The notes under the pieces: model-generated | Told to the model about the DNA's origin: nothing | The model's database searches: none | Seen by the model: only the letters and a program-made list of their open reading frames with translations | Source of the DNA: a virus | Reading direction: 5' to 3' (one strand) | IMG/VR virus record: IMGVR_UViG_3300012205_000174 | Coordinates: 1-22,681 of that record | DNA length: 22,681 nucleotides | Translations under genes and position numbers: made by a program | In this document: positions 4,011-21,918 of the stretch, in pieces | Position numbering within the stretch: the first letter of the stretch is position 1 | How the letters are laid out: each line of letters starts with the position of its first letter

Positions 4011-4615
4011 AACAGGCCGACATCTTTGCCGAATCCGAAGGCGATGCGTGGCTCGAAAGGAATCGCGCCAAGCTCGGCGAACGCGATCCTGTCTCAGAAC
4101 TGATCGAACAGGCCGGAATTAAGCCTACAAGCGTTCTTGAGATCGGCTGCGCCAATGGCTGGCGTCTGGCGCATCTGCGCAAGAAGCATGGCTGCGAAGT
4201 CAACGGCGTTGAGCCGAGCATGCAGGGCTGCATCGAGGCGGCGACCCGCCGCGTGTCGGTCTGGCGCTGCACCGCCGAAAGCCTGCCGGCGGGGAATGAA
4301 GCCTATGATCTCGTGATCTACGGCTTCTGTCTCTACTGCACCGATCCGGCGGACTGGTTCAAAATTGTCGCCGAGGGCGACCGCGTCTTGCGGCCGGACG
4401 GCCATATCGTCATTCACGATTTCAGCATACGCCCTGACGACGAGGCCCATGCTCGCCAATACGAGCACCGTGATGGCGTCTCGTCGTATCATGTCGACTT
4501 CCCTCATTTCTGGCTTGCGAACCCGCTTTACGACCATGTCTGGTGGAGCAAAGTCGGCGATGGGGAGCTAGTCGAGATCATCCATAAGGGTCGCACGCTT
4601 CCGGTGCGCCTATGA
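4007..4615 (+). CDS. Class I SAM-dependent methyltransferase
   Basis: A 202-aa Rossmann methyltransferase. Motif I is VLEIGCANGW at residues 43-52, which binds S-adenosylmethionine. It is followed by NGVEPS (end of strand 2, acidic E contacting the ribose), an AYDLVIYGFCLYC motif IV-like strand, and VLRPDGHIVIHDF, the classic post-I segment of the Methyltransf_11 type. Placed between the small unknown genes and a sugar-type oxidoreductase, it probably methylates a sugar (O- or N-methylation) in the same pathway, although class I sequences alone do not give the substrate. ATGA overlaps at both ends (4007 and 4612) tie it to its neighbours. The length is normal for the family. Confidence 0.88.
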   Translation: MKQADIFAESEGDAWLERNRAKLGERDPVSELIEQAGIKPTSVLEIGCANGWRLAHLRKKHGCEVNGVEPSMQGCIEAATRRVSVWRCTAESLPAGNEAYDLVIYGFCLYCTDPADWFKIVAEGDRVLRPDGHIVIHDFSIRPDDEAHARQYEHRDGVSSYHVDFPHFWLANPLYDHVWWSKVGDGELVEIIHKGRTLPVRL

Positions 4616-5526
4616 AGGTCGGCATCGTCGGATATGGATCGATCGGGCAGCGGCATGCGGCCAACGCGACCTCGCTCGGGCATCAGGTAGTCGTGTACGA
4701 TCCGGCGCAGCGCCGCGACGTCGGGTTCGAACGCATTATCTATGACACCTGCGACGCGGTCGTGATCGCGACACCGACATGGGTCCATATCGCCGGCATT
4801 CGCGCCTGCGCCGAGCGCGGCCGGCATATGCTGGTCGAGAAACCGATCGCGAAGACCACCAAAGACCTGCGCCAGATGCTCGATTGGGCTGCTGCGAAGA
4901 ACCTCACGGTGATGATAGGCAATAATTTGCGCTTTCATCCCTGCGTGCAGAGCGCCAAAACCCGGATCGACGAGGGCCAGCTCGGCGCGCCACTCTGGGC
5001 CTCGTTCACCTGCGCGGCGCTCTCTACAAAGTCGCTCTATCTCTCCGACGGCGTGATCCTCAATACCGGCGCGCACGAGGTCGATCTCGCGCTGCACTTG
5101 CTCGGGCCGGCAAAGGTCGTGAGCGCCAATGCCCATATGGTCTTTGGTGGCGATGAGACCGGATGCGATCTCATCGCCGACTTCGTGCTCGAACATCAGT
5201 CCGGCTGTCGCTCGACCTTCCATCTCGACTACGTCACCAGAACCGAAATTCGCGAGTTTCGCGTCATCGGTGATGAGGGCGATCTCCACGTCGATCTGTC
5301 GGCGCGCACGCTCAAGGCGCGGCTCGCCGATCCGAAGCTGCCAGACGTCACGCACACCGACCTCAAGCTCTACGGCTCCTATGACGCTGATTACCTCGAC
5401 GAGATGACCGCCTTTTTCGATCGCATCGAGGGCCACGACGTTCCTGGCGCGACCGGCGAGGATGGATTCAACACGCTCGACATCCTTCTTGAAGTTCGAA
5501 GCAAAGCCGGAGTAGCGCCGCGATGA
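4612..5526 (+). CDS. Gfo/Idh/MocA family NAD(P)-dependent sugar oxidoreductase
   Basis: A 304-aa oxidoreductase. The N-terminal Rossmann fold starts with VGIVGYGSIGQRH (dinucleotide-binding GxGxxG), and the family EKP signature is at about residues 76-78 (MLVEKPIAKT), where the lysine acts in hydride-transfer catalysis. The C-terminal half has the family segment TGAHEVDLALHLLG, with the conserved histidine expected near the substrate. Members oxidise or reduce hydroxyl groups of sugars and nucleotide sugars. Here it may generate a keto sugar for one of the two aminotransferases downstream; that is inference from context. The length is slightly short for the family (usually 320-370) but both domains are present. 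ATGA overlaps at 4612 and 5523. Confidence 0.9.
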   Translation: MKVGIVGYGSIGQRHAANATSLGHQVVVYDPAQRRDVGFERIIYDTCDAVVIATPTWVHIAGIRACAERGRHMLVEKPIAKTTKDLRQMLDWAAAKNLTVMIGNNLRFHPCVQSAKTRIDEGQLGAPLWASFTCAALSTKSLYLSDGVILNTGAHEVDLALHLLGPAKVVSANAHMVFGGDETGCDLIADFVLEHQSGCRSTFHLDYVTRTEIREFRVIGDEGDLHVDLSARTLKARLADPKLPDVTHTDLKLYGSYDADYLDEMTAFFDRIEGHDVPGATGEDGFNTLDILLEVRSKAGVAPR

Positions 5527-5711
5527 CGCACCGCATTATGATTGATTCGATGCGCAAGCTCATCCAGATCGGAAACCGTGACGAATGGGACAAGTTGCCG
5601 AAGGGCATTCGGGCAACCCCGGTCTATTTCTTCAAGACCGATACCGGCATCGAGCTTTGGCCGATGTGGGCTGATCATGTTGCCTATCCAACCATTCAGG
5701 TATCGCCATGA
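5523..5711 (+). CDS. Hypothetical 62-aa protein
   Basis: Not recognised. A small soluble protein with a short basic N-terminus (THRIMIDSMRKLIQIG), a DEWDKLPKGIRATPVYFF middle and a tryptophan-containing C-terminus (ELWPMWADHV). There is no signal or metal motif. It sits between the oxidoreductase and the fused cytidylyltransferase-aminotransferase, with an ATGA overlap on each side. No enzyme activity is suggested by the sequence. Confidence 0.62.
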   Translation: MTHRIMIDSMRKLIQIGNRDEWDKLPKGIRATPVYFFKTDTGIELWPMWADHVAYPTIQVSP

Positions 5712-7711
5712 AAACCGTTGCAATAATTCAGGCGCGGATGGGCTCTACGCGTTTGCCGGGAAAAGTCCTGATGCCGCTCGGCGGTCATCCGGTGCTCGAA
5801 TGGTGTGTGCGTGCCGCGCGCGCCGCGCCGGGCGTCGACGAGGTCTGGGTCGCCACCACGACGCTTGATGCGGATGACGCTATCGTCAAATGGTGCGACG
5901 AAATTGACGTCAACGTCTGGCGCGGGTCCGAGACCGATGTTCTCGGCCGCTTCTATGATTGCACGATGCCGCTGGTCGGCGAGGATATCATCCTGCGCCT
6001 GACCGGAGACTGCCCGTTCCTTGATCCGCAGGTGATCGGCAGCGTCGTTCGCCTCATCAAACAGACCGGGGCCGACTACTGCAGCAATGTGAGCCCACGT
6101 ACCTATCCGGATGGCCTCGACGTCGAGGCGTTCACGCGCGATGCGCTCTGGCATGCCTATCACGAAGCTCGTCGCCCGATCGACCGCGACTGCGTCACCA
6201 CTTGGATATCGCGCAACCGGTCGCGCTTCCCAGCCGAGACCGTGATCAATCCGATCCCAGGCCTGCAGGAGGAGCGATGGGTGCTCGATACCGCCGAGGA
6301 CTTCGAATTCTGCAAGAACGTCGCGGTCTACTGGCCCTGGCATAAGGGGCCGCCATCACAGTTCGACATCCTCGGCGTGCTCGATGCCAATCCAGACATT
6401 CTGAACGCCAATGCCATCATGAACGAGCGTTACTTCGACGCTCTCGCCGAGGAGCCGATCTATGCCCGGAGTTACGAAAGGTCGCAGGCGCAGTTCAAAA
6501 AAGCCCGCGAAATCATCCCGCTCGCCGCGCAAACCTTCAGCAAAAGCTGGCTCCAGTACCATCAACCTTCGCCCCTGTTCCTCAGCCACGGGCAAGGCGG
6601 TCTCGCTTGGGATATCGACGGCAACGAATATGTGGACCTTGTGTCCGCACTGCTACCGACGATCCTTGGCGCTAGAGACCCTGATGTGGATGCAGCGATC
6701 AGACGGCAGCTTTGTTCCGGGATATCTTTCTCCCTCGCCACCGAACTTGAAGCGCAGCTTGCCGAAACGCTCTGCCGGCTCATCCCGTGTGCGGAAGCGG
6801 TCCGGTTCGGCAAAAGCGGCACGGACGTCACCACGGCAGCGATCCGCCTTGCTCGCGCGTTTACGGGACGCGACAAGGTAATGGTCTGCGGCTATCACGG
6901 GTGGGCGGACTGGAGCATGGCGGTCTCGGAGCGCCGACTCGGCATCCCCGACGCGGTTCAAGCGCTCTCGCTCAAGCAGCCGAAGATCGGACAAGTCCCA
7001 TGGGGTGATCCGAGTGATCCGCCGGCAGCGGTGATCATCGAGCCCGAGGACAATCCCGCTCTCCTGAAATGGCTCCGTGAGATGTGCACGACCGCCGGCA
7101 TCGTCCTCATCTTCGACGAGGTGATCACCGGCTTCCGGTTCGATCTCGGCGGTGCGCAGAAGCTCTATGGCGTCACGCCCGACCTTGCGACCTTCGGCAA
7201 GGCGATGGCCAACGGCATGCCGCTCTCGGCCCTGGTCGGCCGGCACGATATCATGAAGCGCATGGAGCCGCCGGATAACATCTTCTACAGCGGCACCATG
7301 TTCGGCGAAACGCTCTCCTTGGCGGCAGCGATTGCCACGATCAAGAAGCTTGAGCGCGGCAATCTTCTGACTCAAGTCTGTGACTGTGGCGAACTGATTG
7401 CCGCTGAAACAGAGGCGCTTATCATCAAGAATCGCGTCTCCGATCTTATCCGGATCGAGGGCCATCCGTCATTCAAGCGGCTCAAATTCAAGGACGACAA
7501 GATCGCAGCACTATTCCGCAAGGAGATGGTCGCTTCCGGCACGCTGATCGTCGCGAGCCACAATATCTGCGCCGCGCATGGTCCGAGCGAGGTCGCGCGC
7601 ATCTTCCGCTCCTACGACCACACGCTCGGCATCATCCGCGACGCGATCGACAAGAACGACATCGCCGAGCGGCTTGCCGGCGCGACCGTCGGTCCGATGG
7701 TGCGCGCGTGA
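5708..7711 (+). CDS. SpsF-type cytidylyltransferase fused to class-III (GSA-type) aminotransferase
   Basis: A 667-aa two-domain enzyme. Residues 1-240 form a SpsF-like nucleotidyltransferase: IIQARMGSTRLPGKVL binds the nucleotide, followed by RGSETDVLGRFY, the metal-binding LTGDCPFLDP near 98-107 and TYPDGLDVE near 132-140. Residues 255-667 form a fold-type-I PLP aminotransferase of the glutamate-1-semialdehyde aminomutase group: GKSGTDVTTAAIRLAR near 368-383, GYHGWADW near 395-402, IFDEVITGFR at 468-477, and the Schiff-base lysine in ATFGKAMANG, K498. The first domain would activate a sugar acid or sugar with CTP; the second would aminate a keto group. Known: SpsF relatives sit in nonulosonate and surface-glycan operons. 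Inferred: the two steps are coupled on one substrate. ATGA before it, GTGA after it. Confidence 0.9.
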   Translation: MKTVAIIQARMGSTRLPGKVLMPLGGHPVLEWCVRAARAAPGVDEVWVATTTLDADDAIVKWCDEIDVNVWRGSETDVLGRFYDCTMPLVGEDIILRLTGDCPFLDPQVIGSVVRLIKQTGADYCSNVSPRTYPDGLDVEAFTRDALWHAYHEARRPIDRDCVTTWISRNRSRFPAETVINPIPGLQEERWVLDTAEDFEFCKNVAVYWPWHKGPPSQFDILGVLDANPDILNANAIMNERYFDALAEEPIYARSYERSQAQFKKAREIIPLAAQTFSKSWLQYHQPSPLFLSHGQGGLAWDIDGNEYVDLVSALLPTILGARDPDVDAAIRRQLCSGISFSLATELEAQLAETLCRLIPCAEAVRFGKSGTDVTTAAIRLARAFTGRDKVMVCGYHGWADWSMAVSERRLGIPDAVQALSLKQPKIGQVPWGDPSDPPAAVIIEPEDNPALLKWLREMCTTAGIVLIFDEVITGFRFDLGGAQKLYGVTPDLATFGKAMANGMPLSALVGRHDIMKRMEPPDNIFYSGTMFGETLSLAAAIATIKKLERGNLLTQVCDCGELIAAETEALIIKNRVSDLIRIEGHPSFKRLKFKDDKIAALFRKEMVASGTLIVASHNICAAHGPSEVARIFRSYDHTLGIIRDAIDKNDIAERLAGATVGPMVRA

Positions 7712-7890
7712 GCAACCTATCCATAGGGATTATGATCACGGCTGAGCCGTTCGCCGTTACCTTCCTGATCCGCCCGCTCGATTGGCAGATCGGCCTTGGA
7801 AAGATGACCGAACCCGTCGAGTGTGCGTACTGCATGTTCGGACCACTCTTCTTCTCTGTCACCGGTAGATACGAAGGGCCAATCAGGTGA
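7708..7890 (+). CDS. Hypothetical 60-aa protein
   Basis: Not recognised. The protein is hydrophobic and beta-rich (LSIGIMITAEPFAVTFLIRPLDWQ) and contains a CAYC pair near residue 40 followed by an aromatic stretch (MFGPLFFSVTGRY). The start is GTG at 7708, overlapping the preceding stop as GTGA, and the stop overlaps the GTG start of the dehydratase gene at 7887. These paired GTGA junctions are the main support for coding. A single CxxC does not define a metal site. Confidence 0.55.
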   Translation: MSNLSIGIMITAEPFAVTFLIRPLDWQIGLGKMTEPVECAYCMFGPLFFSVTGRYEGPIR

Positions 7891-8741
7891 GATCGGTCCT
7901 CATAACCGGCGGCAGCGGCGCGTTCGGCACAGCATGCGCAAGGCGGATGCTCGTGACGGCTCCTCTGCCGTTCCGCATTGTCATCTTCTCACGCGGCGAG
8001 CACCGGCAGGCAGACATGGCGCGCGAACTCGCGCCTTTGGATGATCCTGATCAGCGGCTGAGATTCTTTGTCGGTGATGTGCGTGATCGGGACAGGCTGC
8101 GACGCGCGATGGAAGGCATCGAGGTGGTGATCCATGCCGCTGCGCTCAAACGCATCGAGGTCGCCGCGTACAATCCCCTTGAGGTCATGAAGACCAACAT
8201 TCTCGGAGCCGCCAATGTTATCGAAGCCGCGACAGACGCTGGCGTTAATAGGGTGGTTGCCCTTTCGACGGACAAGGCATTTCAGCCTATTAGCCCATAC
8301 GGCACAAGTAAGGCATTTGCTGAATCTCTGTTCCAAGCGGCGAACAATACGAAAGGGGCTCACGGGCCGAGATTTTCGGTTTGCCGGTATGGAAACGTCT
8401 GGCGATCTACTGGTTCGGTGGTGCCACTTTGGGAAGAAATCCTCAAGGCATCCGACACGGTACCGGTGACCGATCCGGAATGCACCCGGTTCTTCATGAC
8501 CATGGATGAGGCGGTGAGTCTCGTTTTGGACACCGCCGAGACCATGCGAGGCGGCGAGATTGCGATCCCGGAGTTGCCGGCCTATCGTCTGGGCGATCTG
8601 GCCGAGGCCATGGGCGCAAAGATGGATGTGCGCGGATTGCCCCTGTACGAAAAGAGACACGAGTCCATGGGCGCGGGGAATAGCAGCGATCAGGCACGCC
8701 GGATGTCGGTTGAGGAATTGCGGGAGGCATTGACATGTTGA
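7887..8741 (+). CDS. PseB-like UDP-sugar 4,6-dehydratase (extended SDR)
   Basis: A 284-aa NAD(P)-dependent nucleotide-sugar dehydratase. TGGSGAFG at residues 7-14 is the dinucleotide loop, GDVRDRDRL near 63 the adenine-side loop, and VVIHAAALKRIEVAAYNP is the stretch typical of UDP-GlcNAc inverting 4,6-dehydratases (PseB). The catalytic set is present: STDKAF with D129 and K130, then YGTSK with Y138 and K142. RYGNVWRSTGSVVPLW and DPECTRFFMTMDEAV also follow PseB. In pseudaminic acid synthesis this step makes the 4-keto-6-deoxy sugar. It is shorter than PseB (about 330 aa); the C-terminus is trimmed after the YEKRHESM segment. GTG start at 7887 (GTGA overlap). The sequence supports the family; exact substrate is inferred. 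Confidence 0.87.
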   Translation: MRSVLITGGSGAFGTACARRMLVTAPLPFRIVIFSRGEHRQADMARELAPLDDPDQRLRFFVGDVRDRDRLRRAMEGIEVVIHAAALKRIEVAAYNPLEVMKTNILGAANVIEAATDAGVNRVVALSTDKAFQPISPYGTSKAFAESLFQAANNTKGAHGPRFSVCRYGNVWRSTGSVVPLWEEILKASDTVPVTDPECTRFFMTMDEAVSLVLDTAETMRGGEIAIPELPAYRLGDLAEAMGAKMDVRGLPLYEKRHESMGAGNSSDQARRMSVEELREALTC

Positions 8742-8917
8742 AGGTGCATATTGTGGCATGGGGACATCCGACATTGCCCGACCTCGACTATCAGACGGAC
8801 GATCTCAATGACCTGCGGTACAAGCAGTATCCGATGCAGAGCATTGCCATCCTGACTCCCATATCTAAAGCCTTGATCGAGGCCGGTTTGAAAGAACAAA
8901 AGGATGATCAATCTTAG
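8735..8917 (+). CDS. Hypothetical 60-aa protein
   Basis: Not recognised. It has an N-terminal strand (LKVHIVAWGHPTLPDLDY), an acidic TDDLNDLRYKQYP linker and a helical C-terminus rich in lysine (ISKALIEAGLKEQKDD). It starts inside the end of the dehydratase gene (7-nt overlap) and ends inside the start of the acetyltransferase gene (14-nt overlap). These overlaps are larger than elsewhere, so the frame is probable rather than certain. Confidence 0.55.
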   Translation: MLKVHIVAWGHPTLPDLDYQTDDLNDLRYKQYPMQSIAILTPISKALIEAGLKEQKDDQS

Positions 8918-9359
8918 ACCCGCGACGCTCGCCGATGCCGACCGGCTCTTTGCATGGCGTAACGATCCGGTAACCTGCGCCAACAGCCGGTCAACCGCCG
9001 CCGTGCCGCGCGAGGATCACGACCGGTGGATGAAGTTCAATGTGCTCCTGGGACAGCCCGAGCACGCCGTCATCATCGCCGAAGGCCTCGGTGGCTGCGT
9101 CGGCGTGGTCCGGTTCGATGCGGCAAAGAACGATCTCATGACATATGAGGCCTCGATCACGATCGCGCCCGAGTATCGCGGCAGTGGGTTCGCCCGACCT
9201 ATCTTGGCCGAGGCCTGCGGTTTTTTCTCGGATTTTGCGATCAGCGCGGAAGTGAGGCACGATAACATCGCATCGCGCAAGGTGTTCGAACGCTGCGGCT
9301 TCGACGAGATCGGCCGCGAAGCTGGCTTTCTGCAGTACCGCAAGGAGCCGCAAACATGA
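8904..9359 (+). CDS. GNAT N-acetyltransferase, PseH-like
   Basis: A 151-aa GNAT enzyme. It opens with INLRPATLADADRLFAWRNDP, where the L-x-WRNDP pattern is common in acetyltransferases of nonulosonate and aminosugar operons such as PseH. The acetyl-CoA loop is RGSGFA at about 92-97, after the strand EASITIAPEY. AEVRHDNIASRKVFERCGF is the motif B segment (N.AS.KvfeK.GF). It lies between the PseB-like dehydratase and the DegT aminotransferase, the genes whose product it would acetylate in a Pse-type route (UDP-4-amino sugar to 4-acetamido sugar). The start at 8904 gives a full N-terminus, and the stop overlaps the next start as ATGA. Acceptor specificity is inferred from context. Confidence 0.88.
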   Translation: MINLRPATLADADRLFAWRNDPVTCANSRSTAAVPREDHDRWMKFNVLLGQPEHAVIIAEGLGGCVGVVRFDAAKNDLMTYEASITIAPEYRGSGFARPILAEACGFFSDFAISAEVRHDNIASRKVFERCGFDEIGREAGFLQYRKEPQT

Positions 9360-10474
9360 TCGGGAAGATCAAGCCGTTCAACTCGTTCACCGCGTCGGCG
9401 CTCTATGAAAACGTGCCGCTCTCCGGCTATCTCGCCGGCAAGGAACGCGGCGGGCGCGAGGTCTGCGCACTGGAAGACGCTTGGGCGAAGACGTTCAAGG
9501 TCAAGCACGCCATCGCCTGCAACAGTGCTACGTCAGGTTTGGTCGCAGCATCGTTCGCGGTCGGGCTCAAGGCTGGGGACGAGTTCGTTTGCCCGGCGAT
9601 GACCATGAGCGCCACCTGCGCCGCGCCGATGTTCACCGGGGCGACGCCGACATTCGGCGATGTCGACGAAGATGATTTCGCGCTCGACGTCCCGATCCCG
9701 ATCACCGACAAGCACCGGGCGATCTTCATCACCAATCTGTTCGGCCATCCAGGTCGGCTAAACGTCTGGCGCGAGATCGCGGTCACGAACGGCATTCCGC
9801 TGATCGAGGACAATTCGCAGTCCCCGTTCGCATGGGAGTACGACACCTTCGCCGGCACAGTCGGCCACATCGGCGTGTTCTCCTTGAACGTGCACAAGCC
9901 GATTCAGTGCGGTGAAGGTGGCATGATCGTCACCGATGACGATGATCTCGCCGCCCGCATGCGCGCCTTCATCAATCATGGTGAGCATGTCGGGCCGGAG
10001 ATCGGGCTCAACCTGCGCATGCCCGAGGTCTGCGCGGCCATCGCATTGGTGCAACTGCAGCGCGGTGAGCAGATCATCCAGGGCCGGATCGATCAGGCCA
10101 CGGCCATTTTGGCGGCGATCGGCGATATCCCGGGATTGCGCATGCCGATCGTCCGCAAGGGATGCCGGCATGTCTATTATACGATCCCGTTCCTGGTTGA
10201 CCCGTCCGACCGGCCCGGGCGCGTGTACGAGCCCGAAACGCGATCGTGGTTCTGCAAGCTGCTCCGCGAGGCAGGCATGCCGATCGTCGATGGTTACGTT
10301 GCGCCGCTCTACCGGATGCCGGCGTTCGCGCGCTTCGCGCGGCCCTGCCCGGTTGCCGAGGACCTGCACGATCGCCGGCTGTTCTACTTCGAAAACACCG
10401 CCCATGACGTCACCCTGGCGCAGGCGGAGCAGATCGGGGCGGCGTTCCGGAAGGCGGCGGAGATGGTGCTATGA
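9356..10474 (+). CDS. DegT/DnrJ/EryC1/StrS (PseC-like) aminotransferase
   Basis: A 372-aa PLP-dependent sugar aminotransferase. ACNSATSGL near 54-62 is the family motif that binds the cofactor phosphate. PLIEDNSQSPFAW near 148-160 supplies the aspartate for the pyridine nitrogen, and VFSLNVHKPIQCGEGGM carries the Schiff-base lysine K181, followed by the glycine-rich turn and the RAFINHG segment. Such enzymes transfer an amino group from glutamate to a keto sugar, in Pse-type pathways to C4 of the PseB product. It is placed directly after the PseH-like gene and before the synthase. It could act in the same chain as the PLP domain of the fused protein, which would then use a different keto sugar. 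ATGA at both ends; normal length. Confidence 0.92.
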   Translation: MIGKIKPFNSFTASALYENVPLSGYLAGKERGGREVCALEDAWAKTFKVKHAIACNSATSGLVAASFAVGLKAGDEFVCPAMTMSATCAAPMFTGATPTFGDVDEDDFALDVPIPITDKHRAIFITNLFGHPGRLNVWREIAVTNGIPLIEDNSQSPFAWEYDTFAGTVGHIGVFSLNVHKPIQCGEGGMIVTDDDDLAARMRAFINHGEHVGPEIGLNLRMPEVCAAIALVQLQRGEQIIQGRIDQATAILAAIGDIPGLRMPIVRKGCRHVYYTIPFLVDPSDRPGRVYEPETRSWFCKLLREAGMPIVDGYVAPLYRMPAFARFARPCPVAEDLHDRRLFYFENTAHDVTLAQAEQIGAAFRKAAEMVL

Positions 10475-10659
10475 GCACAATCGACTACAGCATAGGAGGC
10501 CGGTACGACCCGACGCTGTTGAAGGGTGACATCGGCGGCCTTTACGGGCGCATGCCGTCGGAACTGCAAAAACTGGTCAGAAAAATCGCTGATGCACCGA
10601 ACTACGACTACGCAGCGATGGAACTGCTCGACGCGTTTCAGATGGAGTGGCGGAAATGA
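10471..10659 (+). CDS. Hypothetical 62-aa protein
   Basis: Not recognised. A small helical protein: a GGRYDPTLLKGDIGGLYG N-terminal part, then helices RMPSELQKLVRKIADA and AAMELLDAFQMEWRK. No metal or signal motif. ATGA overlaps at 10471 (after the aminotransferase) and 10656 (before the synthase) support translation. It is the last of the proteins of about 60 aa interleaved with the sugar enzymes. Confidence 0.6.
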   Translation: MSTIDYSIGGRYDPTLLKGDIGGLYGRMPSELQKLVRKIADAPNYDYAAMELLDAFQMEWRK

Positions 10660-11285
10660 CCGAAATCGTCGCCGAGATCAGCGGCAACCATGGCGGCTCG
10701 CTCGATAACGCGCTGCGGCTCATCCTGGACGCCAACGAGGCTGGTGCCGATGCGGTGAAGTTCCAATGCTTCGATCCGGAATGTCTTGCCGCTCGGCGCG
10801 CGACACGCGCCGACGTCCTGGCGCTGGCCGGCGGCGTCCCGCTCGTTCGTCTCTATCGCCGAACGCATACGCCACGATGGTGGTTTCCGAAGATGATCTC
10901 TCACGCCGAAACCTACGGCCTCAAATGGTTCTCCTCCGTCTTCGACCCCGACGACGTCGCCTTCCTCGAAACGCTCGGCTGTCCAAGGTACAAGATCAGC
11001 GCGTTCGAAATGCTCGACTGGGATATCATCAAGGCGGTTCGCGAGACCGGCAAGCCGATCGTTATGTCAGTGCGGCCGATGCCGGGCGTGACCATCCTGC
11101 AGGCGACCGATTACAACGGCGAACTGGCATCACTCGGCCTGTCCGCCCATCGCACGATGATGCTGCCGGCTCCGGACGCGCCGATGGTCGAGTGGCACCT
11201 CAAGCTCGAAGACGTCGAGACGCCGGATAGCGAGTTCTCCCTGACGCTGGAACAGATGCGCGCGCACATCATGAGGGTGCGATGA
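10656..11285 (+). CDS. Compact NeuB/PseI-like nonulosonate synthase (209 aa, no SAF domain)
   Basis: The fold is that of N-acetylneuraminate/pseudaminate synthases, which condense phosphoenolpyruvate with a 6-carbon aminosugar. VAEISGNHGGS at 5-15 matches the substrate loop, ADAVKFQCFDPE at 31-42 carries the conserved KFQ, WFSSVFD at 91-97 and RYKISAFE at 111-118 follow the barrel strands, GLSAH at 161-165 corresponds to GLSDH/GYSDH, and H181 to the EKHFT histidine; PDSEFSLT at 190-197 also matches. Family members are about 330-350 aa. This one lacks the roughly 60-residue C-terminal SAF domain and has a shortened segment between residues about 142 and 180. Both expected metal histidines remain, but the Asp of SDH is Ala and the Lys of EKH is Trp. 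Activity is uncertain. ATGA overlap at 10656. Confidence 0.8.
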   Translation: MTEIVAEISGNHGGSLDNALRLILDANEAGADAVKFQCFDPECLAARRATRADVLALAGGVPLVRLYRRTHTPRWWFPKMISHAETYGLKWFSSVFDPDDVAFLETLGCPRYKISAFEMLDWDIIKAVRETGKPIVMSVRPMPGVTILQATDYNGELASLGLSAHRTMMLPAPDAPMVEWHLKLEDVETPDSEFSLTLEQMRAHIMRVR

Positions 11286-11522
11286 ATGCATTTTTACCGA
11301 ACCACCAAAGCACATGTTCCGAGCCCGGAGGATTTGCTCATCCTCAAATGCCGGTGTGGCTGGACGTCGAAGGAGTTGACGGTCCCGGAGCTGAGCCAAC
11401 GCGGCATCCCCTGGTACTGCGACATCTGCGGCAAAAGGAATCTTCGCTTCATCCGATTTGCACCGCACGAGCGCGCCGAGGCCTACTCCGCCTTCGGCAT
11501 CAGGAACGAATCAGAGACATAG
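11286..11522 (+). CDS. Small zinc-ribbon protein (78 aa)
   Basis: The protein has a CRCGW pair and a later CDICGK pair about 20 residues downstream (LILKCRCGWTSKEL and WYCDICGKRNL). This spacing fits a zinc ribbon that could bind DNA, RNA or a protein partner. The C-terminus is basic and then charged (RFIRFAPHERAEAY). ATG at 11286 lies one base after the stop of the synthase gene. Another frame opens four bases earlier but gives no cysteine pattern, so this frame is preferred. It is near the end of the long plus-strand operon. Confidence 0.72.
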   Translation: MHFYRTTKAHVPSPEDLLILKCRCGWTSKELTVPELSQRGIPWYCDICGKRNLRFIRFAPHERAEAYSAFGIRNESET

Positions 11523-11563
11523 CGTGAAAAAGGCCGGCCCGCGCAGCAGTTGAGGAATGCGGA

Positions 11564-11815
11564 ATGACAGCCGACGAGAAACTAACTGCTATCTTGGCGG
11601 AGCACGGCAAAACCGAGTGCCCGAGTTGCGGTAAGAAAATCGATCGCGCAGATGTTGCTTGGAATAATGCGGATACCGAGGCAGGCACGCCCTTTACATG
11701 GGTGGAGATTCAATGTCTCGCGTGCCAAACCGAAATTATCCACTTCAGCTCATGGTATCCGGCAGCGGACGATTTAGACGACCTAATCGAACACGTTTTG
11801 CCAGATTGGCGTTAA
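11564..11815 (+). CDS. Small zinc-ribbon protein (83 aa)
   Basis: Last gene of the plus-strand operon. It has CPSCGKK near residues 19-25 and CLACQ about 30 residues later, each a CxxC, which is the usual zinc-ribbon spacing. The C-terminus is acidic (PAADDLDDLIEHVLPDW). A GAGG Shine-Dalgarno sequence about 10 nt before ATG 11564 supports the start, and there is a 41-nt gap after the previous gene. The gene ends just before the terminator hairpin of the opposing outer-membrane gene, so the two operons converge here. Function unknown. Confidence 0.75.
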   Translation: MTADEKLTAILAEHGKTECPSCGKKIDRADVAWNNADTEAGTPFTWVEIQCLACQTEIIHFSSWYPAADDLDDLIEHVLPDWR

Positions 11816-14265: not shown

Positions 14266-14465
14266 GTCGCCGCCGATCGCCGTGGGCATGGCGTGCATCG
14301 CGTCTTGTCCGTCGGATACCCGACAGGTGGACAATCCGAACAAAGCAGTTTCACTCCGCGCCTCGCCACCGCGATCTGCGATCGAGCAAGCTTATCGGCG
14401 TGCGCACGATAGAGACGGCGGCCTGCCGTCTCGTCAGGATCGTCCGCGTACCGGTCTGCCATCAT
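14262..14465 (-). CDS. Small zinc-ribbon-like protein (67 aa)
   Basis: An acidic N-terminus (MMADRYADDPDETAGRRLYR) is followed by a helix (AHADKLARSQIAVARRGVK) and a C-terminal pair CSDC...CTPC about 11 residues apart, consistent with a zinc ribbon or knuckle. The start at 14465 or 14462 overlaps the recombinase stop, so the two are translationally linked. It may be a partner or DNA-binding accessory of the recombinase; that is inference from the overlap. Confidence 0.68.
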   Translation of the reverse strand: MMADRYADDPDETAGRRLYRAHADKLARSQIAVARRGVKLLCSDCPPVGYPTDKTRCTPCPRRSAAT

Positions 14466-15166
14466 GTCGCCCTCGATCGCGTCGCGAGCATCGACCGCAC
14501 CGCCATCGCCGCATACGGTCGCCCGCTCGGGGTCAGATGGCCCGCAGCCGCAAGCGCGGCGGACACTGCGCGCAGCGAACGGCCGGAGCAAAGCTCCCGA
14601 GCCGCCTCCACCACCTCCGGCCGCATTTCAAAGTAGTTCTTCCGGCCACCAACCTTCTTCCCGGTCCGCTCCCGCTTCCGATCCCGCGCCGCCTTCAACT
14701 TCGCGACAAGGCTCGCCTTTTCGAACTGCGCGATGGCCCCGAGTACCTGCCGAACGAGCACCGCCGTCGGTGTTTCCTCAGTAAAATAATCCGGTGCCGA
14801 CGCGGGGATGAGGACTACCCCGAGTGTCTTCAGATAATCATGCCCCGTGAGCTGCACCACCAAATCCCGCGCAAACCGGTCCGGACTCTCGACAATAATC
14901 GTCCGAACCCCGTTCTCCGCAATGCGGAGGAGCATCGCCGCAAACCCCGGACGATCCGTGATCGCGTCCTTGCCCTTCACCGCAGGGTCATAGAAGTAGT
15001 CGCCATCGGCGATCTCATATCCCGCCTCCGCCGCGTACCCCGCTATCGCCGCACGCTGCCGGGGCTCGCTATCCTTGCCCTCCCCAACATTCGCCGCAGA
15101 CGACGTCCGCATGTAGCCAACCGCATGGATCATATGGATGCCCTCGGTAATCGTTGGCCTGCTCAT
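14462..15166 (-). CDS. Small serine recombinase (resolvase/invertase family)
   Basis: A 234-aa site-specific recombinase. AVGYMRTSS holds the catalytic serine (S22) after the conserved arginine R20. DRPGFAAML at 71-79 holds the next conserved arginine, and PDRFARDL at 96-102 the two-arginine motif of the active site. The segment LGAIAQFEKASLVAKLKAARDRKR near 142-165 is the E-helix/linker, and the C-terminus carries a helix-turn-helix (GRSLRAVSAALAAAGHL...GRPY). All core residues are present. The size excludes the large serine integrases. Such enzymes resolve, invert or integrate DNA at short inverted-repeat sites; candidate 16-bp sites occur at 12829-12869 and 15427-15442. It starts at TAATG overlapping the membrane-protein stop. 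Confidence 0.9.
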   Translation of the reverse strand: MSRPTITEGIHMIHAVGYMRTSSAANVGEGKDSEPRQRAAIAGYAAEAGYEIADGDYFYDPAVKGKDAITDRPGFAAMLLRIAENGVRTIIVESPDRFARDLVVQLTGHDYLKTLGVVLIPASAPDYFTEETPTAVLVRQVLGAIAQFEKASLVAKLKAARDRKRERTGKKVGGRKNYFEMRPEVVEAARELCSGRSLRAVSAALAAAGHLTPSGRPYAAMAVRSMLATRSRAT

Positions 15167-15360
15167 TATCGCCCCACTACCAGTTTCCAAAGGGTCCATG
15201 GCCAGATCGCGCCAGCAAAAATGCCCGCAACAAGACGAGGAAACGGCGTCGATCGTCCGCTCGGCAAAGTAATGCTGACCTTGTCCATAGAGGAGACAAA
15301 AAGACCAACGATCACACTGCCCACGGCGTAAAAGAGCAAAATGTCCTGAAGCATACTCAC
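15166..15360 (-). CDS. Small membrane protein (64 aa, two predicted TM segments)
   Basis: Two hydrophobic segments, LQDILLFYAVGSVIVGLFV and LVAGIFAGAIWPWTLWKLVVG, flank a polar loop (SSMDKVSITLPSGRSTPFP), so this is a two-span inner-membrane protein. GTG at 15360 is chosen because GGGAGG lies 5-6 bases upstream; an in-frame ATG at 15354 is the alternative. It is the first gene of the recombinase operon, and its stop overlaps the recombinase start (TAATG). Size and topology resemble small phage holins, but the sequence gives no proof and no endolysin is next to it. Confidence 0.75.
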   Translation of the reverse strand: MSMLQDILLFYAVGSVIVGLFVSSMDKVSITLPSGRSTPFPRLVAGIFAGAIWPWTLWKLVVGR

Positions 15361-15426
15361 GGTAACCTCCCAAATCAATTCCGATACACTACATGAGTGC
15401 AGCAGAAAACTCAAAGGTTCAACGAA

Positions 15427-17865: not shown

Positions 17866-18138
17866 ATGACCAATCAAGCCACTCCGTTTTCTGCGGTGAC
17901 GTTTGCCGCCAATCCGCCGGCCGATCCGTTGCGCAAGGCCGCGCGTTCTCTCGAATTCGCGACCGAGCTTTCGCCCTCGCAGTTTCTTTGGGCCTCGCAG
18001 CATGATTGGTTCGTTGCCGGCGTTGCCGGGCGCAAGATCATTGTCCGCGATAGCTTCACATGGAACAGCGCCAGCTATTCCGAACAGCTCATCTGGGGAG
18101 GCACGTTCGCCGAGCTTCGCATTTGGGCGGGATACTAA
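17866..18138 (+). CDS. Hypothetical 90-aa protein
   Basis: Not recognised. N-terminal polar region (TNQATPFSAVTFAANPPADP), then a helix (LRKAARSLEFATEL), then a tryptophan-rich beta part (QFLWASQHDWFVAGVAGRKIIVRDSFTWNSASYSEQLIWGGTF). The fold looks small and globular. The gene is followed directly, with no gap, by the first hammerhead ribozyme (18139), so its stop codon TAA at 18136-18138 abuts ribozyme stem II. Confidence 0.72.
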   Translation: MTNQATPFSAVTFAANPPADPLRKAARSLEFATELSPSQFLWASQHDWFVAGVAGRKIIVRDSFTWNSASYSEQLIWGGTFAELRIWAGY

Positions 18139-18191
18139 GGCCGAAACGGGCGCAAGCCCGTCGCAACGTGATGCGTTGCCCGATGATGGCC
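18139..18191 (+). ncRNA. Type II hammerhead ribozyme 1 (core position 4 is C)
   Basis: Order on the RNA: stem II 5' strand GGCC (18139-18142), GAAA core (18143-18146), stem III ACGGGC/GCCCGT with GCAA loop (18146-18161), C17 at 18162, stem I GCAACG/CGTTGC with loop TGATG (18163-18179), core CCGATGA (18180-18186), one extra T, stem II 3' strand GGCC (18188-18191). Predicted self-cleavage is between 18162 and 18163. Core bases match the hammerhead consensus except position 4, C for U, which is expected to weaken catalysis. The 3' strand of stem II runs directly into ACTGAGAGG, the ribosome-binding box of the next gene. Confidence 0.82.
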
Positions 18192-18200
18192 ACTGAGAGG
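18192..18200 (+). promoter_or_regulatory. ACTGAGAGG ribosome-binding box, leader 3
   Basis: The box ACTGAGAGG lies 9 nt before the ATG at 18210 and immediately follows stem II of ribozyme 1. It is the same box found before the other cassette genes, so it decides the start. The TTGGCG hairpin seen in leaders 1 and 2 is replaced here by the ribozyme. Confidence 0.75.
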
Positions 18201-18209
18201 GATAATCCG

Positions 18210-18479
18210 ATGATGACACCAGACAAAAAAGCCCGCGCGCTCGCCGTGACGTTCTTGAGCATCTGGAATGCATGGGCAGATGAGCACGAAGATTCGCGTG
18301 ACGACGCGTTGCGACTCACCTGCGAGGCGGTTCGCGCCATGGACCTGCATCAGGTTGACGGCACGCTCGCTTCCCCGCTCAACTATTTCACCTGCGCATA
18401 CCTTGACGAATTCAATCCGGAAGATTTGACCTATGATGAAATGATGCAGGGCATGGCGATTTCACTCGCTCTACGATAG
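18210..18479 (+). CDS. Hypothetical 89-aa acidic protein
   Basis: Not recognised. It starts MMTPDKKARALAVTFLSIWNAWADEHEDSRDD and is acidic and helical, then has a beta-prone C-terminal half with LNYFTCAYLDEFNPEDLTYDEMMQG. No metal or nucleotide motif. ATG 18210 is preferred, with the conserved box 9 nt upstream; a second ATG follows at once. Its stop TAG (18477-18479) shares its last G with stem II of ribozyme 2, so the end of translation touches the ribozyme. Confidence 0.72.
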   Translation: MMTPDKKARALAVTFLSIWNAWADEHEDSRDDALRLTCEAVRAMDLHQVDGTLASPLNYFTCAYLDEFNPEDLTYDEMMQGMAISLALR

Positions 18480-18531
18480 GCCGAAACCCGCTCTTGCGGG
18501 TCGACGCGTGACGCGCGTCCTGATGATGGCC
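18479..18531 (+). ncRNA. Type II hammerhead ribozyme 2 (consensus core)
   Basis: Stem II 5' strand GGCC at 18479-18482; GAAA at 18483-18486; stem III ACCCGC/GCGGGT around loop TCTT (18486-18501); C17 at 18502; stem I GACGCG/CGCGTC around TGACG (18503-18519); CTGATGA at 18520-18526; one extra T; GGCC at 18528-18531. All hammerhead core bases match the consensus. Predicted cleavage 18502/18503. Stems I and III differ in sequence from those of copies 1, 3 and 4 yet pair completely. The first G is the last base of the TAG stop of the preceding gene. Confidence 0.95.
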
Positions 18532-18537
18532 ATCACG

Positions 18538-18547
18538 AACTGAGAGG
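18538..18547 (+). promoter_or_regulatory. AACTGAGAGG ribosome-binding box, leader 4
   Basis: AACTGAGAGG with an 8-nt spacer to the ATG at 18556. It follows ribozyme 2 by only six bases. After ribozyme cleavage the downstream RNA would begin at 18503 and carry stem I, the CUGAUGA strand and this box. Confidence 0.75.
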
Positions 18548-18555
18548 ATTAGACC

Positions 18556-18762
18556 ATGCTGCTATCGCAAAACTTCAAAACGCTCGCAGGTGCGCAAAAG
18601 CGCGCGGCTTTCGAAAATGCCCATTGTGGCAAGCGCTATACCTACTTGCCGGTCCGATGTCGCAACGGTCAACCGGACAACGAATCGATCCAGCGCGACC
18701 GGGAATATACTTGGCGGCTTGATCGGGTTGTCCGCATGCCGAATCCATTCGCCAACGCATAG
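18556..18762 (+). CDS. Hypothetical 68-aa basic protein
   Basis: Not recognised. Basic: MLLSQNFKTLAGAQKRAAFENAHCGKRYTYLPVRCRNGQPDN, then SIQRDREYTWRLDRVVRMP. Two cysteines, no clear finger. The box AACTGAGAGG precedes the ATG by 8 nt. The TAG stop at 18760-18762 shares its G with the first base of stem II of ribozyme 3. The length and basic charge suggest a nucleic-acid-binding role, which is a guess. Confidence 0.7.
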   Translation: MLLSQNFKTLAGAQKRAAFENAHCGKRYTYLPVRCRNGQPDNESIQRDREYTWRLDRVVRMPNPFANA

Positions 18763-18816
18763 GCCGAAACGCGGCGCAAGCCGCGTCGCGCGATTGTGTC
18801 GCGCCTGATGATGGCC
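18762..18816 (+). ncRNA. Type II hammerhead ribozyme 3 (consensus core)
   Basis: Stem II 5' strand GGCC at 18762-18765; GAAA at 18766-18769; stem III ACGCGGC/GCCGCGT around loop GCAA (18769-18786, 7 bp); C17 at 18787; stem I GCGCGA/TCGCGC around TTGTG (18788-18804); CTGATGA at 18805-18811; one extra T; GGCC at 18813-18816. Predicted cleavage 18787/18788. Stem III is one pair longer than in the other copies, again with full complementarity. The core is perfect. Confidence 0.95.
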
Positions 18817-18827
18817 ATCAGACATTC

Positions 18828-18837
18828 AACTGAGAGG
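18828..18837 (+). promoter_or_regulatory. AACTGAGAGG ribosome-binding box, leader 5
   Basis: AACTGAGAGG with a 7-nt spacer to the ATG at 18845. It follows ribozyme 3, separated by 11 bases. No TTGGCG hairpin is present in this leader; the ribozyme takes its place. Confidence 0.75.
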
Positions 18838-18844
18838 GCAAAAC

Positions 18845-19309
18845 ATGGCTTGGAAAGTTTATGGATTTATGGAAGGCCAAGACGGTAACCCGCGATTCAA
18901 ATCGCGAGGTGCCACGGTTTACGGCCCATTGCCGCGCAAAATGTGGGTTCGCGTCGCTGGCGAAAAGCGCCCGCGCGCAAAGAAGGTCACCATGGGCAGC
19001 ACGCGCGGGACCTTCGACCGCGACGAGCAAGCGCGCAAGGGGATCGAATACGCGCGCTGGCTCGCCCTGCGCGATGCCATCGCGTTGCCCGATGGGAGCG
19101 CTTGCGCGATCTGGGCAGACGTCACATTGCCAACGGGCAAACGCCAGTCGCGCGTTTCCGCCGTTTCGTTTCATTGGAAGAGCGGCGGACAGATTATCGA
19201 TATTCCCAACTGGGATTGGATACCGGTTGAACCCGTGCTGCAGATCAATGACGACTATTTCCGCGATTTGCTCGCCATTCCCGCCGAGTCTTTGGAGATT
19301 GCCGCTTAA
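18845..19309 (+). CDS. Hypothetical 154-aa basic protein
   Basis: Not recognised. Largest protein between ribozymes. N-terminal beta part with basic residues (WKVYGFMEGQDGNPRFKSRG, RKMWVRVAGEKRPRAKKVTMG), then a helical middle (DEQARKGIEYARWLALRDAIAL) and a second beta part (CAIWADVTLPTGKRQSRVSAVSFHW), ending with acidic residues. The pattern could be a small nucleic-acid-binding or substrate-mimic protein. The stop TAA at 19307-19309 abuts ribozyme 4, which begins at 19310. Confidence 0.72.
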   Translation: MAWKVYGFMEGQDGNPRFKSRGATVYGPLPRKMWVRVAGEKRPRAKKVTMGSTRGTFDRDEQARKGIEYARWLALRDAIALPDGSACAIWADVTLPTGKRQSRVSAVSFHWKSGGQIIDIPNWDWIPVEPVLQINDDYFRDLLAIPAESLEIAA

Positions 19310-19363
19310 GGTCGAAACGGGCATATTGCCCGTCGAGCCGTAACGCGGCTCCTGATGATGACC
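19310..19363 (+). ncRNA. Type II hammerhead ribozyme 4 (consensus core, covarying stem II)
   Basis: Stem II 5' strand GGTC at 19310-19313; GAAA at 19314-19317; stem III ACGGGC/GCCCGT around ATATT (19317-19333); C17 at 19334; stem I GAGCCG/CGGCTC around TAACG (19335-19351); CTGATGA at 19352-19358; one extra T; GACC at 19360-19363. Predicted cleavage 19334/19335. Stem II is GGTC/GACC here and GGCC/GGCC in copies 1-3, a compensatory change that strongly supports the fold. It is followed directly by the ATGGCG hairpin of leader 6. Confidence 0.95.
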
Positions 19364-19397: not shown

Positions 19398-19856
19398 ATG
19401 ACGAAATATAATTGCATCGACACACTAACCAAAGCCGGCATTTCGTATCAGGATGCCACCGCGCTACGCCGCATCTCGATGACGCTGCATCGCTGGCATG
19501 AGTTGGAATGCGGCGACGGCAATAGTTATGGATCATGGGCGATCGTGCGCCGCCACAAAGGACGAACGAAACCTGTTGAAGGCTTCAATGCTACTTTCGA
19601 TCATGACGACCAAGGCAAGCCGTTTTTGGAACACCACCACTATCGGCACGGCAACGGCAAGGACTACACGTCTTACACGCCCATGGCCGACCGCGAGCGC
19701 GGCGCGTTGAAGCGCCTCGCCAAGATCATGGCATGCTATCCGGCTTTCCAAAGCTATGTGCAAGGCGGTGCGCTCTACATCCTGCGGCCCGAAGATGCGG
19801 CTTTCGGGGATGACTTGTCGACCCACTACACGCGCGGAATCGCGGTCTACAAATAG
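19398..19856 (+). CDS. Conserved-looking hypothetical phage protein (152 aa)
   Basis: Function unknown, but the pattern resembles a family of small phage proteins: TLHRWHELECGDGN near the N-terminal third, DHDDQGKPFLEHHHYRHG in the middle, and MADRERGALKRLAKIMACYP with a final QGGALYILRPED. The family members I recall share the LHRW.ELECGDGN and DRE.GALKRL motifs. No catalytic motif is evident. The box AACTGAGAGG precedes the ATG by 8 nt, and ribozyme 4 lies directly upstream, so the mRNA may be released by self-cleavage. Confidence 0.8.
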   Translation: MTKYNCIDTLTKAGISYQDATALRRISMTLHRWHELECGDGNSYGSWAIVRRHKGRTKPVEGFNATFDHDDQGKPFLEHHHYRHGNGKDYTSYTPMADRERGALKRLAKIMACYPAFQSYVQGGALYILRPEDAAFGDDLSTHYTRGIAVYK

Positions 19857-19954
19857 TGTTGCGGCCCATGCCCCCGCGCCAATGCGGGGAGGGGCCTGAA
19901 GATGACCAATTTATCGGCAATAACTGCCCGTATGGCGCGGGCCTAACTGAGAGG
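19857..19954 (+). promoter_or_regulatory. Leader element 7: hairpins, half hammerhead core and AACTGAGAGG box
   Basis: The 103-nt spacer holds a hairpin CCCCGC-GCCAAT-GCGGGG (19872-19889) enclosed by GGCCC/GGGCC, then CTGAAGA at 19896-19902 and T-GACC at 19903-19907, the same arrangement as the 3' half of ribozyme 4 with A in the variable position 7. The matching GAAAC and GGTC strands are missing, so no complete ribozyme is present. A GCCCG/CGGGC hairpin (19926-19942) with loop TATGGCG follows, then AACTGAGAGG at 19945-19954, 5 nt before the ATG. Confidence 0.6.
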
Positions 19955-19959
19955 GACCA

Positions 19960-20448
19960 ATGAAAACAATCGAACAAATGGTGCAGCAAGAGGTGAGTTG
20001 CTGCCTATCGTCGCTTATCTTCACTCTCGCGAATGGTGACGCGCATCCTGGCACCGATCTTTCGTTACTTTGTGATCAGGCTCTTGAACTGATATCGCCC
20101 GTGCCAGATTATGAGGAGGCGGCAAGAGAGGCTGGATGGAAGCATGTTGCCCGCGATCCTAACCCGCTTGAAGACGAAACGTCTTCCATGTGGATACACG
20201 ATGATTTCGAAACTGGTGCCGAGTCCGCTGAAGAGGCCTGCGAAAAGCACGGACTTGAGCCCTATGACTGGGAAGTGTACGAACATTGGGCCGTTTCGCC
20301 GTGGCTCGCGGCAAAGCTGGCCGCGCAGGGCGAGAAGGTCAATATGGATTTTGCAAACCTGAATATTTGGGCACGGACCAACACCGGGCAGCAGATCAGC
20401 AGCGATGACGTGATCAAGCGGATTTATGCCACGATGATGAAGGCCTGA
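19960..20448 (+). CDS. Conserved-looking hypothetical 162-aa protein
   Basis: Function unknown. Segments such as DYEEAAREAGWKHV, the acidic HDDFETGAESAEEACEKHG, and the C-terminal WEVYEHWAVSPWLAAKLAAQGEKV followed by FANLNIWARTNTGQQISSDDVIKRI resemble a protein family I have seen in phages and plasmids of Proteobacteria; the name is not known to me. The chain is acidic overall. The start ATG 19960 has the AACTGAGAGG box only 5 nt upstream, the closest spacing in the array. Confidence 0.78.
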   Translation: MKTIEQMVQQEVSCCLSSLIFTLANGDAHPGTDLSLLCDQALELISPVPDYEEAAREAGWKHVARDPNPLEDETSSMWIHDDFETGAESAEEACEKHGLEPYDWEVYEHWAVSPWLAAKLAAQGEKVNMDFANLNIWARTNTGQQISSDDVIKRIYATMMKA

Positions 20449-20460
20449 AGCGTTGCAGCC

Positions 20461-20511
20461 CATGCCCCTCCTCGCGCGGGGCATGATCGGCAACACTGCC
20501 GAATAGAGAGG
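20461..20511 (+). promoter_or_regulatory. Leader element 8: two hairpins and AATAGAGAGG box
   Basis: The 8-bp stem CATGCCCC/GGGGCATG (20461-20468 and 20478-20485) is followed by CGGCA-ACAC-TGCCG (20488-20501) and then AATAGAGAGG at 20502-20511, a two-base variant of the common box, 9 nt before the ATG at 20521. The upstream part GTTGC-GCCCATGCCCC is shared with leader 7 (G/A at one position). No hammerhead core and no TTGGCG loop. Confidence 0.6.
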
Positions 20512-20697: not shown

Positions 20698-20703
20698 AGC
20701 AAT

Positions 20704-20748
20704 CGGCAACACTGCCGGCGGACCTTGGCGGGTCCGTTAACTGAGAGG
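20704..20748 (+). promoter_or_regulatory. Leader element 9: tandem hairpins (TTGGCG loop) plus AACTGAGAGG box
   Basis: CGGCA-ACAC-TGCCG at 20704-20717 repeats the hairpin of leader 8. Next comes CGGACC-TTGGCG-GGTCCG (20719-20736), a perfect 6-bp stem with exactly the TTGGCG hexaloop of leaders 1 and 2 but a different stem sequence. AACTGAGAGG follows at 20739-20748, 7 nt before the ATG of the 29-aa gene. Confidence 0.75.
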
Positions 20749-21118: not shown

Positions 21119-21313
21119 ATGACAAACGCACAATACCGAAAATTGCTCTCCGATCTAGGCCTTAACATCGTCGAGGCAGGCCGCGTGCTGGGCATATCGC
21201 CCCGGCAGGCGCAGCGCTACGCGGCAGGGGACGCCATCCCCGCGCCAATCGCAAAACTGATGCGACTCATGGCGGAAAAGAATATTGATCCCGAATATGT
21301 CGAGACGCTTTAG
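21119..21313 (+). CDS. Small helix-turn-helix (Cro/CI-like) DNA-binding protein (64 aa)
   Basis: The chain is almost only a helix-turn-helix: LLSDLGLNIVEAGRVLGISPRQAQRYAAG, followed by AIPAPIAKLMRLMAEKN, typical of compact XRE/Cro-type regulators in which the second helix (SPRQAQRYA) contacts DNA. It closes the cassette array. ATG at 21119 has GGAAAGG about 9 nt upstream and a more distant CCTGAGAGG. Likely a transcription regulator of the phage early region; the target is unknown. A TetR gene follows 11 bp downstream. Confidence 0.78.
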   Translation: MTNAQYRKLLSDLGLNIVEAGRVLGISPRQAQRYAAGDAIPAPIAKLMRLMAEKNIDPEYVETL

Positions 21314-21324
21314 AAAGGTATTTG

Positions 21325-21918
21325 ATGGCCTACCGCAAAACCGAGAAGGTGCTCGCCAGTTTGGAGGCGCGCCGCAATTCAATTCTGGCCTCCGCCATCG
21401 ACGTCATTGCGCGGTCGGGAATGGAGGGATTGACCACCGATGCGGTGGCCGCACGCGCTGGCATTGCGGCCGGGCTCATGTACAAATATTTTCCCGATAA
21501 AACCGAGCTGATCGCCGCCGTGTTCGCGAAGTTGCTCGCGCGTGATCTCGACTCGATGCGCGCCGTTCCCGACAAAGACCCGCTGCGCGCGCTCGCGGCA
21601 GCAATCGCGGTATTCTATGGCGTGGCCATGTCGCCACTGGCACCGGCCTGCGCCGCGAACCCGATCTATCGCAGGAATGTCAGGGATGAGTTTTCGCGCC
21701 TGATCCGCGCAGCAGTCGACGACCTGGAGCCAGCCGGGGTCAAGCTCGCCGCAGCGGCCACGGTGGGCGCGATCTACGCTTGGGCCGGTAGCAACGCCCG
21801 CCCACAAAAACTCGCGCCTGGGGCTATCCTGTTCGTTCTGAGAGGCCTTGGTGTTTCGGACGCGGCTGCACGGAAGGTCGTGGCCCGGATGTACGGGGCT
21901 GGTCATGCGACTGCCTGA
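21325..21918 (+). CDS. TetR/AcrR family transcription regulator
   Basis: A 197-aa regulator. The N-terminal helix-turn-helix is typical: RRNSILASAIDVIARSGMEGLTTDAVAARAGIAAGLMYKYFPDKTELIAAVF, with MYKYFPDKTEL being the hallmark end of the TetR DNA-binding domain. The C-terminal part is an all-helical ligand domain (PLRALAAAIAVFYGVAM and so on). Normal length. ATG 21325 is preceded by AGAAAGG at about 6 bp; a TTG at 21322 is an alternative. Target and ligand unknown. It is probably co-transcribed with the small helix-turn-helix gene. Confidence 0.9.
   Translation: MAYRKTEKVLASLEARRNSILASAIDVIARSGMEGLTTDAVAARAGIAAGLMYKYFPDKTELIAAVFAKLLARDLDSMRAVPDKDPLRALAAAIAVFYGVAMSPLAPACAANPIYRRNVRDEFSRLIRAAVDDLEPAGVKLAAAATVGAIYAWAGSNARPQKLAPGAILFVLRGLGVSDAAARKVVARMYGAGHATA

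Follow-up and report, generated by a model that had tools for sequence, protein, structure and literature searches.

Four type II hammerhead ribozymes on consecutive gene boundaries of a phage-like element: a probable means of splitting a polycistronic transcript into single-gene messages

Clusters of hammerhead ribozymes that flank single prophage genes have been described in Agrobacterium tumefaciens, Azorhizobium caulinodans and Clostridium scindens; in the text of that report, three clustered arrangements were tested and cleaved in vitro, the A. tumefaciens one also in E. coli, and mRNA processing was proposed for them (Perreault et al., 2011; PMC3088659). Here we analyzed a whole IMG/VR record of 22,681 bases (hereafter the window), in which, as in those clusters, several ribozymes flank single genes. 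Unlike the clusters as that text presents them, the window has four ribozymes in a row, one per gene boundary, and its relatives reach 11 among the matches listed. A preliminary description of the locus had held that type II hammerheads usually occur singly, a statement that the clustered prophage hammerheads contradict, and because these were published in 2011 the window is best regarded, on the text of that report, as a further member of an already known class, in variant form (PMC3088659). With the type II family RF02276, as far as it is covered in the same text, the window copies share closed stems I and III, an open stem II, the conserved core and a phage or prophage setting; they differ in having a 5-nt UNNNG loop I and an extra U after A9, and in having no pseudoknot of four or more pairs between loop I and the 3′ tail (PMC3088659). 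What is new is the number of relatives in IMG/VR (at least about 350), arrays of up to 11 copies and the placement at stop codons, while a core-complementary tail, described below, and the larger arrays look new. Stop-codon abutment, core-complementary tails and arrays this long were not found in the text of the 2011 report (PMC3088659), and a literature search, with most subscription papers and figures outside its coverage, returned no paper matching the abutment, the long arrays or the tail.

The four ribozymes of the window are as follows.
18139-18191, + strand: type II hammerhead copy 1, predicted cut 18162/18163, core CCGAUGA (U4C)
18479-18531, + strand: type II hammerhead copy 2, predicted cut 18502/18503, core CUGANGA exact
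18762-18816, + strand: type II hammerhead copy 3, predicted cut 18787/18788, core CUGANGA exact
19310-19363, + strand: type II hammerhead copy 4, predicted cut 19334/19335, stem II GGUC/GACC, core CUGANGA exact

By sequence and predicted fold, all four are confirmed as type II hammerheads. The exact descriptor used (in order: stem II, GAAA, a closed stem III with an A-U pair, H, a closed stem I, CYGANGA, stem II) found exactly these four copies in the window and had no match in 300 first-order Markov shuffles of it. All stems are paired in every copy, and the GAAA strand with the A15.1-U16.1 pair and the NUH triplet (GUC) is present in 4 of 4. The hammerhead fold is both the minimum-energy and the centroid fold for each copy (z from -2.4 to -3.7), and in both folds stems I and III are closed by loops and stem II is open, which bears out the type II topology claimed in the preliminary description. 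The individual elements it had named were likewise all found where it had placed them, its cut sites are correctly positioned on the sequence, and the fragment lengths it had calculated between them (340, 285 and 547 nt) are right. The single U that it had noticed ahead of stem II, inserted between A9 and the stem, holds in the window copies, in which loop I is a 5-nt UNNNG. A pseudoknot between loop I and the 3′ tail is common, though not universal, within the Hammerhead_II family, and the 5-nt loop I of the window is too short for the published one.

A scan with the Rfam Hammerhead_II model (RF02276), which had been proposed along with the initial claims, gave a mixed outcome: copies 2, 3 and 1 were matched (28.6, 27.4 and 21.3 bits), but all fell below the gathering cutoff of 37 bits, and for copy 4 there was no match at all. 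These low scores are likely due to the UNNNG loop I and the inserted U, as loop I is longer in the Rfam consensus, which also lacks a U ahead of stem II. At the cutoff the model matched none of about 35 further copies in 10 loci; 3 of the 11 copies of contig L422 were matched, and these have no inserted U. Our own covariance model, built from 43 sequences with the four window copies among them, scored those copies at 67-71 bits, with the next-best match in the window at 11.5. Since the Rfam model misses the inserted-U variant in the contigs tested, ribozymes of phages are probably under-annotated.

Relatives were sought in IMG/VR by pattern scans that did not demand pairing in stems I and III, the descriptor filter being applied afterwards. 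This yielded a first set of at least 226 distinct ribozymes, to which a later scan for copies without the inserted U added a second set of at least 130, giving at least about 350 in IMG/VR contigs. In a 43-sequence alignment 99.4% of stem cells are paired, a percentage biased upward by the filtering of this set for pairing, and 11 of 16 pairs covary, a variety of pair types that the filter does not produce. The covariation score was 0.669 vs. 0.145 in shuffled alignments and at most 0.138 in slid versions, and 175 cells were changed on both sides vs. 53.5 in shuffles and at most 50 in slid versions. The alignment of homologues suggested in the preliminary description thus revealed heavy covariation of all three stems among independent relatives. 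Conversely, GAAA, GUC and CUGANGA are conserved across many sequences while the stems differ freely, although the fetching patterns demanded part of these motifs. This constancy of the catalytic elements argues against the explanation that the spacers are transcription terminators or simple mRNA-stabilising hairpins that do not self-cleave, as does the absence of a U-run after the spacer hairpins; each spacer does have two strong G+C hairpins at a gene end, as such elements would, and even so we consider this explanation extremely improbable. In host genomes (pattern scan of genome_contigs) matches were at chance level, and among the matches listed no locus kept agrees with the exact descriptor; in one bacterial class, the covariance model matched 2 of the 385 genomes. 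A weak match in L159, obtained with one mismatch allowed in the descriptor, was discarded.

The reading frames that surround the ribozymes are listed here in order.
17866-18138, + strand: ORF preceding copy 1, 90 aa, without a family match; its TAA directly precedes copy 1
18210-18479, + strand: ORF of 89 aa flanked by copies 1 and 2, without a family match; the last base of its TAG is the first G of copy 2
18556-18762, + strand: ORF of 68 aa flanked by copies 2 and 3, without a family match; the last base of its TAG is the first G of copy 3
18845-19309, + strand: ORF of 154 aa flanked by copies 3 and 4, with weak relatives in L371 and L380 (40%); its TAA directly precedes copy 4
19398-19856, + strand: ORF of 152 aa following copy 4; 32 viral contigs hold relatives, mostly with no hammerhead

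Stop codon-to-ribozyme gaps are 0, -1, -1 and 0 nt for copies 1-4, and 18-34 nt separate the end of each ribozyme from the following start codon, so that every copy sits at the stop of one ORF and ahead of the next start, in agreement with the single-gene spacing first claimed. Among the matches listed, the same placement was observed in the relatives: in the first set, the ribozyme lies at -3 to +3 nt of the stop-codon end in 130 of 216 cases vs. 118 of 4320 (2.7%) random positions, and the abutment was repeated in the second set (94 of 129). Also among the matches listed, the median distance from ribozyme to next ATG is 23 nt, and the base preceding the ribozyme is A in 211 of 222. Stop-codon abutment together with a nearby ATG suggests that each unit cut out would be a complete gene, including its stop codon, ribosome site and start. 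Arrays are frequent; at least 67 strand-wise sets with two or more copies occur among 243 loci (median spacing 477 nt), and other IMG/VR records carry arrays of 3 to 11 copies among the matches listed. They include 8 hammerheads within 7 kb of L235 (759-7814, + strand), a viral contig of 100,794 bases, and 11 type II hammerheads in 5 kb of L422 (174-5156, - strand), a viral contig of 67,627 bases.

Each window copy is followed by a ACTGAGAGG leader with a Shine-Dalgarno-like GAGAGG, at 18192-18200 (+) after copy 1 and at 18539, 18829 and 19381 after copies 2-4. This repeat occurs 8 times upstream of ORF starts (17562, 17850, 18192, 18539, 18829, 19381, 19946 and 20740, all +; 0.07 expected in the window) and exceeds the length needed for a Shine-Dalgarno sequence. 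The spacer 19857-19959 contains CTGAAGATGACC, which matches a ribozyme's 3′ half, with A as N7, and has no GAAA strand; it is possibly a decayed fifth copy, scoring 8.4 bits, which is noise level in our model. A further repeat, AGYGTTGCRGCCCATGCCCC, is common to the spacers at 19855-19874 and 20449-20468, and ATCGGCAACACTGCCG forms a perfect repeat at 20486-20501 and 20702-20717.

The preliminary description had spoken of consecutive phage genes, which is partly upheld. For four of the ORFs downstream, relatives occur in viral contigs or in a cultured phage; most array ORFs lack a family match, however, and the left half of the window is occupied by pseudaminic acid-type sugar genes of bacteria. 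Two of the 32 viral contigs place relatives of ORF 19398-19856 near phage primase-helicase genes, and the 162-aa ORF at 19960-20448, the sole one matched by a cultured phage, has a relative in Rhizobium phage RHph_N65. With the sugar genes and a serine recombinase (14465-15373) in or near the left half, the arrangement fits a provirus edge, and a search for a similar plasmid found none. We therefore describe the carrier of the array as a phage-like, provirus-type element rather than as proven phage genes. The sugar genes at 4612-11282 encode a cytidylyltransferase-aminotransferase fusion, a DegT protein and NeuB, whose ORF covers only half the domain and may be truncated. At 21119-21918 a gene for a small HTH protein is followed by one for a TetR-type regulator, and the same pair (60% and 47% identity) is found at 10705-11686 (-) of L020, a hammerhead-bearing phage contig.

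To our knowledge, the purpose of bacterial and phage hammerheads has been an open question since 2011. With one ribozyme per gene boundary, abutting the stop codon, and arrays of up to 11, mRNA processing is the natural reading and is directly testable: the four hammerheads very probably split a polycistronic transcript into single-gene messages. Once transcribed, each copy would fold and cut on the 3′ side of the C that follows the GU pair, just before stem I starts. The 5′ product would retain its full reading frame and stop codon and have the stem III hairpin, carrying a 2′,3′-cyclic phosphate, at its end, while the 3′ product would begin with the 5′-OH stem I hairpin and keep its own Shine-Dalgarno sequence and start codon. 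From these structured ends on both products we infer a degree of protection, and the likely benefit would be separate stability and dosage for neighboring small genes. With stem II starting at the stop codon, its 5′ strand should be covered by a terminating ribosome, which would delay folding. For one gene such processing appears dispensable, since the ribozyme is absent beside most viral relatives of ORF 19398-19856. Alternatively, cleavage followed by religation may let the array produce RNAs that are circular or spliced rather than linear mRNAs. Hammerheads can ligate, and the idea was weighed in the text of the 2011 report, but such products were sought there and none was detected (Perreault et al., 2011; PMC3088659). 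What lies between the cuts, complete reading frames with their own ribosome sites, fits mRNAs, and we regard circular or spliced products as very unlikely.

How many of the copies are active is a separate matter. U4 of the CUGANGA core is a normally invariant base, and a C at this position is found in a handful of the at least about 350 relatives; U4C could thus make copy 1 dead or slow, in which case only copies 2-4 would be active and the first cut would be lost. Against this, the stems of copy 1 are fully paired, and U4C with intact stems also occurs in two members of the 11-copy L422 array, a recurrence that suggests tolerance. We see the chances as evenly balanced; copy 1 may be weak.

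About a quarter of the relatives (at least 89 cases) carry, directly 3′ of stem II, a tail reverse-complementary to the core (CUGAU...AUCAG or CUGAC...GUCAG). Among the matches listed of the first set, U7 cores were followed by AUCAG in 13 cases and GUCAG in 0, and C7 cores by GUCAG in 40 and AUCAG in 0 (Fisher's test ignoring relatedness, 1.2e-12); when tails were shuffled among these ribozymes, a mean of 20.3 and a maximum of 32 matched, vs. 53 observed. The match was predicted beforehand for ribozymes without the inserted U and was found in 7/7 (U7) and 29/29 (C7) of those listed. Both sets together comprise at least 20 U7/AUCAG and at least 69 C7/GUCAG cases, plus 3 and 6, respectively, with the tail one base further on, and no crossed combination at these two tail positions is among the matches listed. 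At 75% similarity, the first-set tail sequences listed group into 18 clusters (C7 in 14, U7 in 7), and the ribozymes L030:10743 and L236:2896 differ by one base in stems and loops, yet both N7 and the tail have changed. Because N7 is the only free base of the core, covariation of the tail is confined to the N7-tail pair; the remaining evidence is that UCAG, complementary to the fixed CUGA, keeps recurring. A pseudoknot between loop I and the tail was ruled out, as in the relatives the tail tracks N7 and not loop I.

Pairing of core and tail forms an alternative hairpin of 6 bp, including a pair between G8 and the last C of stem II; this hairpin and stem II are mutually exclusive. The energy difference between the active and the alternative fold ranges from -1.4 to +0.7 kcal/mol in 53 cases, a closeness that arises partly from the constrained sequences. 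Two window copies have such a hairpin.
18805-18821, + strand: copy 3 alternative hairpin, 6 bp, CUGAUG-AUGGC-CAUCAG, tail AUCAG; alternative fold -31.7, active fold -31.2 kcal/mol
18521-18535, + strand: copy 2 alternative hairpin, 5 bp, UGAUG-AUGGC-CAUCA; core-tail pairing near-complete

We slightly favor the reading that the tail is a lock acting after cleavage. Stem II would be transcribed ahead of the tail, so that the active fold has the chance to form before the alternative; following cleavage, the products would be held by just the 4 bp of stem II, and once they separate, the freed core strand would pair with the tail, stack on stem I and block religation. In viroid and satellite RNA hammerheads, an alternative fold can sequester the core after processing; there, the core's complement belongs to the opposite arm of a circular RNA of rod-like shape, whereas here it is a 5-6 nt mRNA tail beside stem II. 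That the tail is instead an off-switch acting on uncut RNA seems to us rather doubtful. More tentatively, a widespread class of phage hammerheads may be a built-in two-state switch in which ribosome termination helps decide cutting and the tail also locks the cut ends; the near-equal fold energies and the start of stem II at the stop codon would suit such a part for terminating ribosomes. In either form, the core-complementary tail predicts a natural, ligand-independent ribozyme switch or lock.

Another possibility, which applies to a subset, is that the tail is the outer half of stem II, pairing with CUGAC just upstream around the stop codon. An upstream partner (CUGAC or CUGAU) was found in 20 of 51 first-set tail-bearing ribozymes vs. 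4% of the others among the matches listed; on the other hand, it is missing in 31 of the 51 and in 36 of 36 second-set tail ribozymes listed, as well as in window copies 2 and 3, and the tail base always matches N7 among the matches listed, even where the partner is missing. We consider this possibility unlikely. A general extension of stem II by both flanks was rejected, complementary 4-mers not being in excess outside the CUGAC subset. Within that subset (L242, L268, L271, L298, L317, L343 and others), CUGAC lies 9-10 nt upstream of stem II, complementary to GUCAG, and is possibly the third strand of a translation-sensitive switch; it often contains a UGA stop codon or stays beside one.
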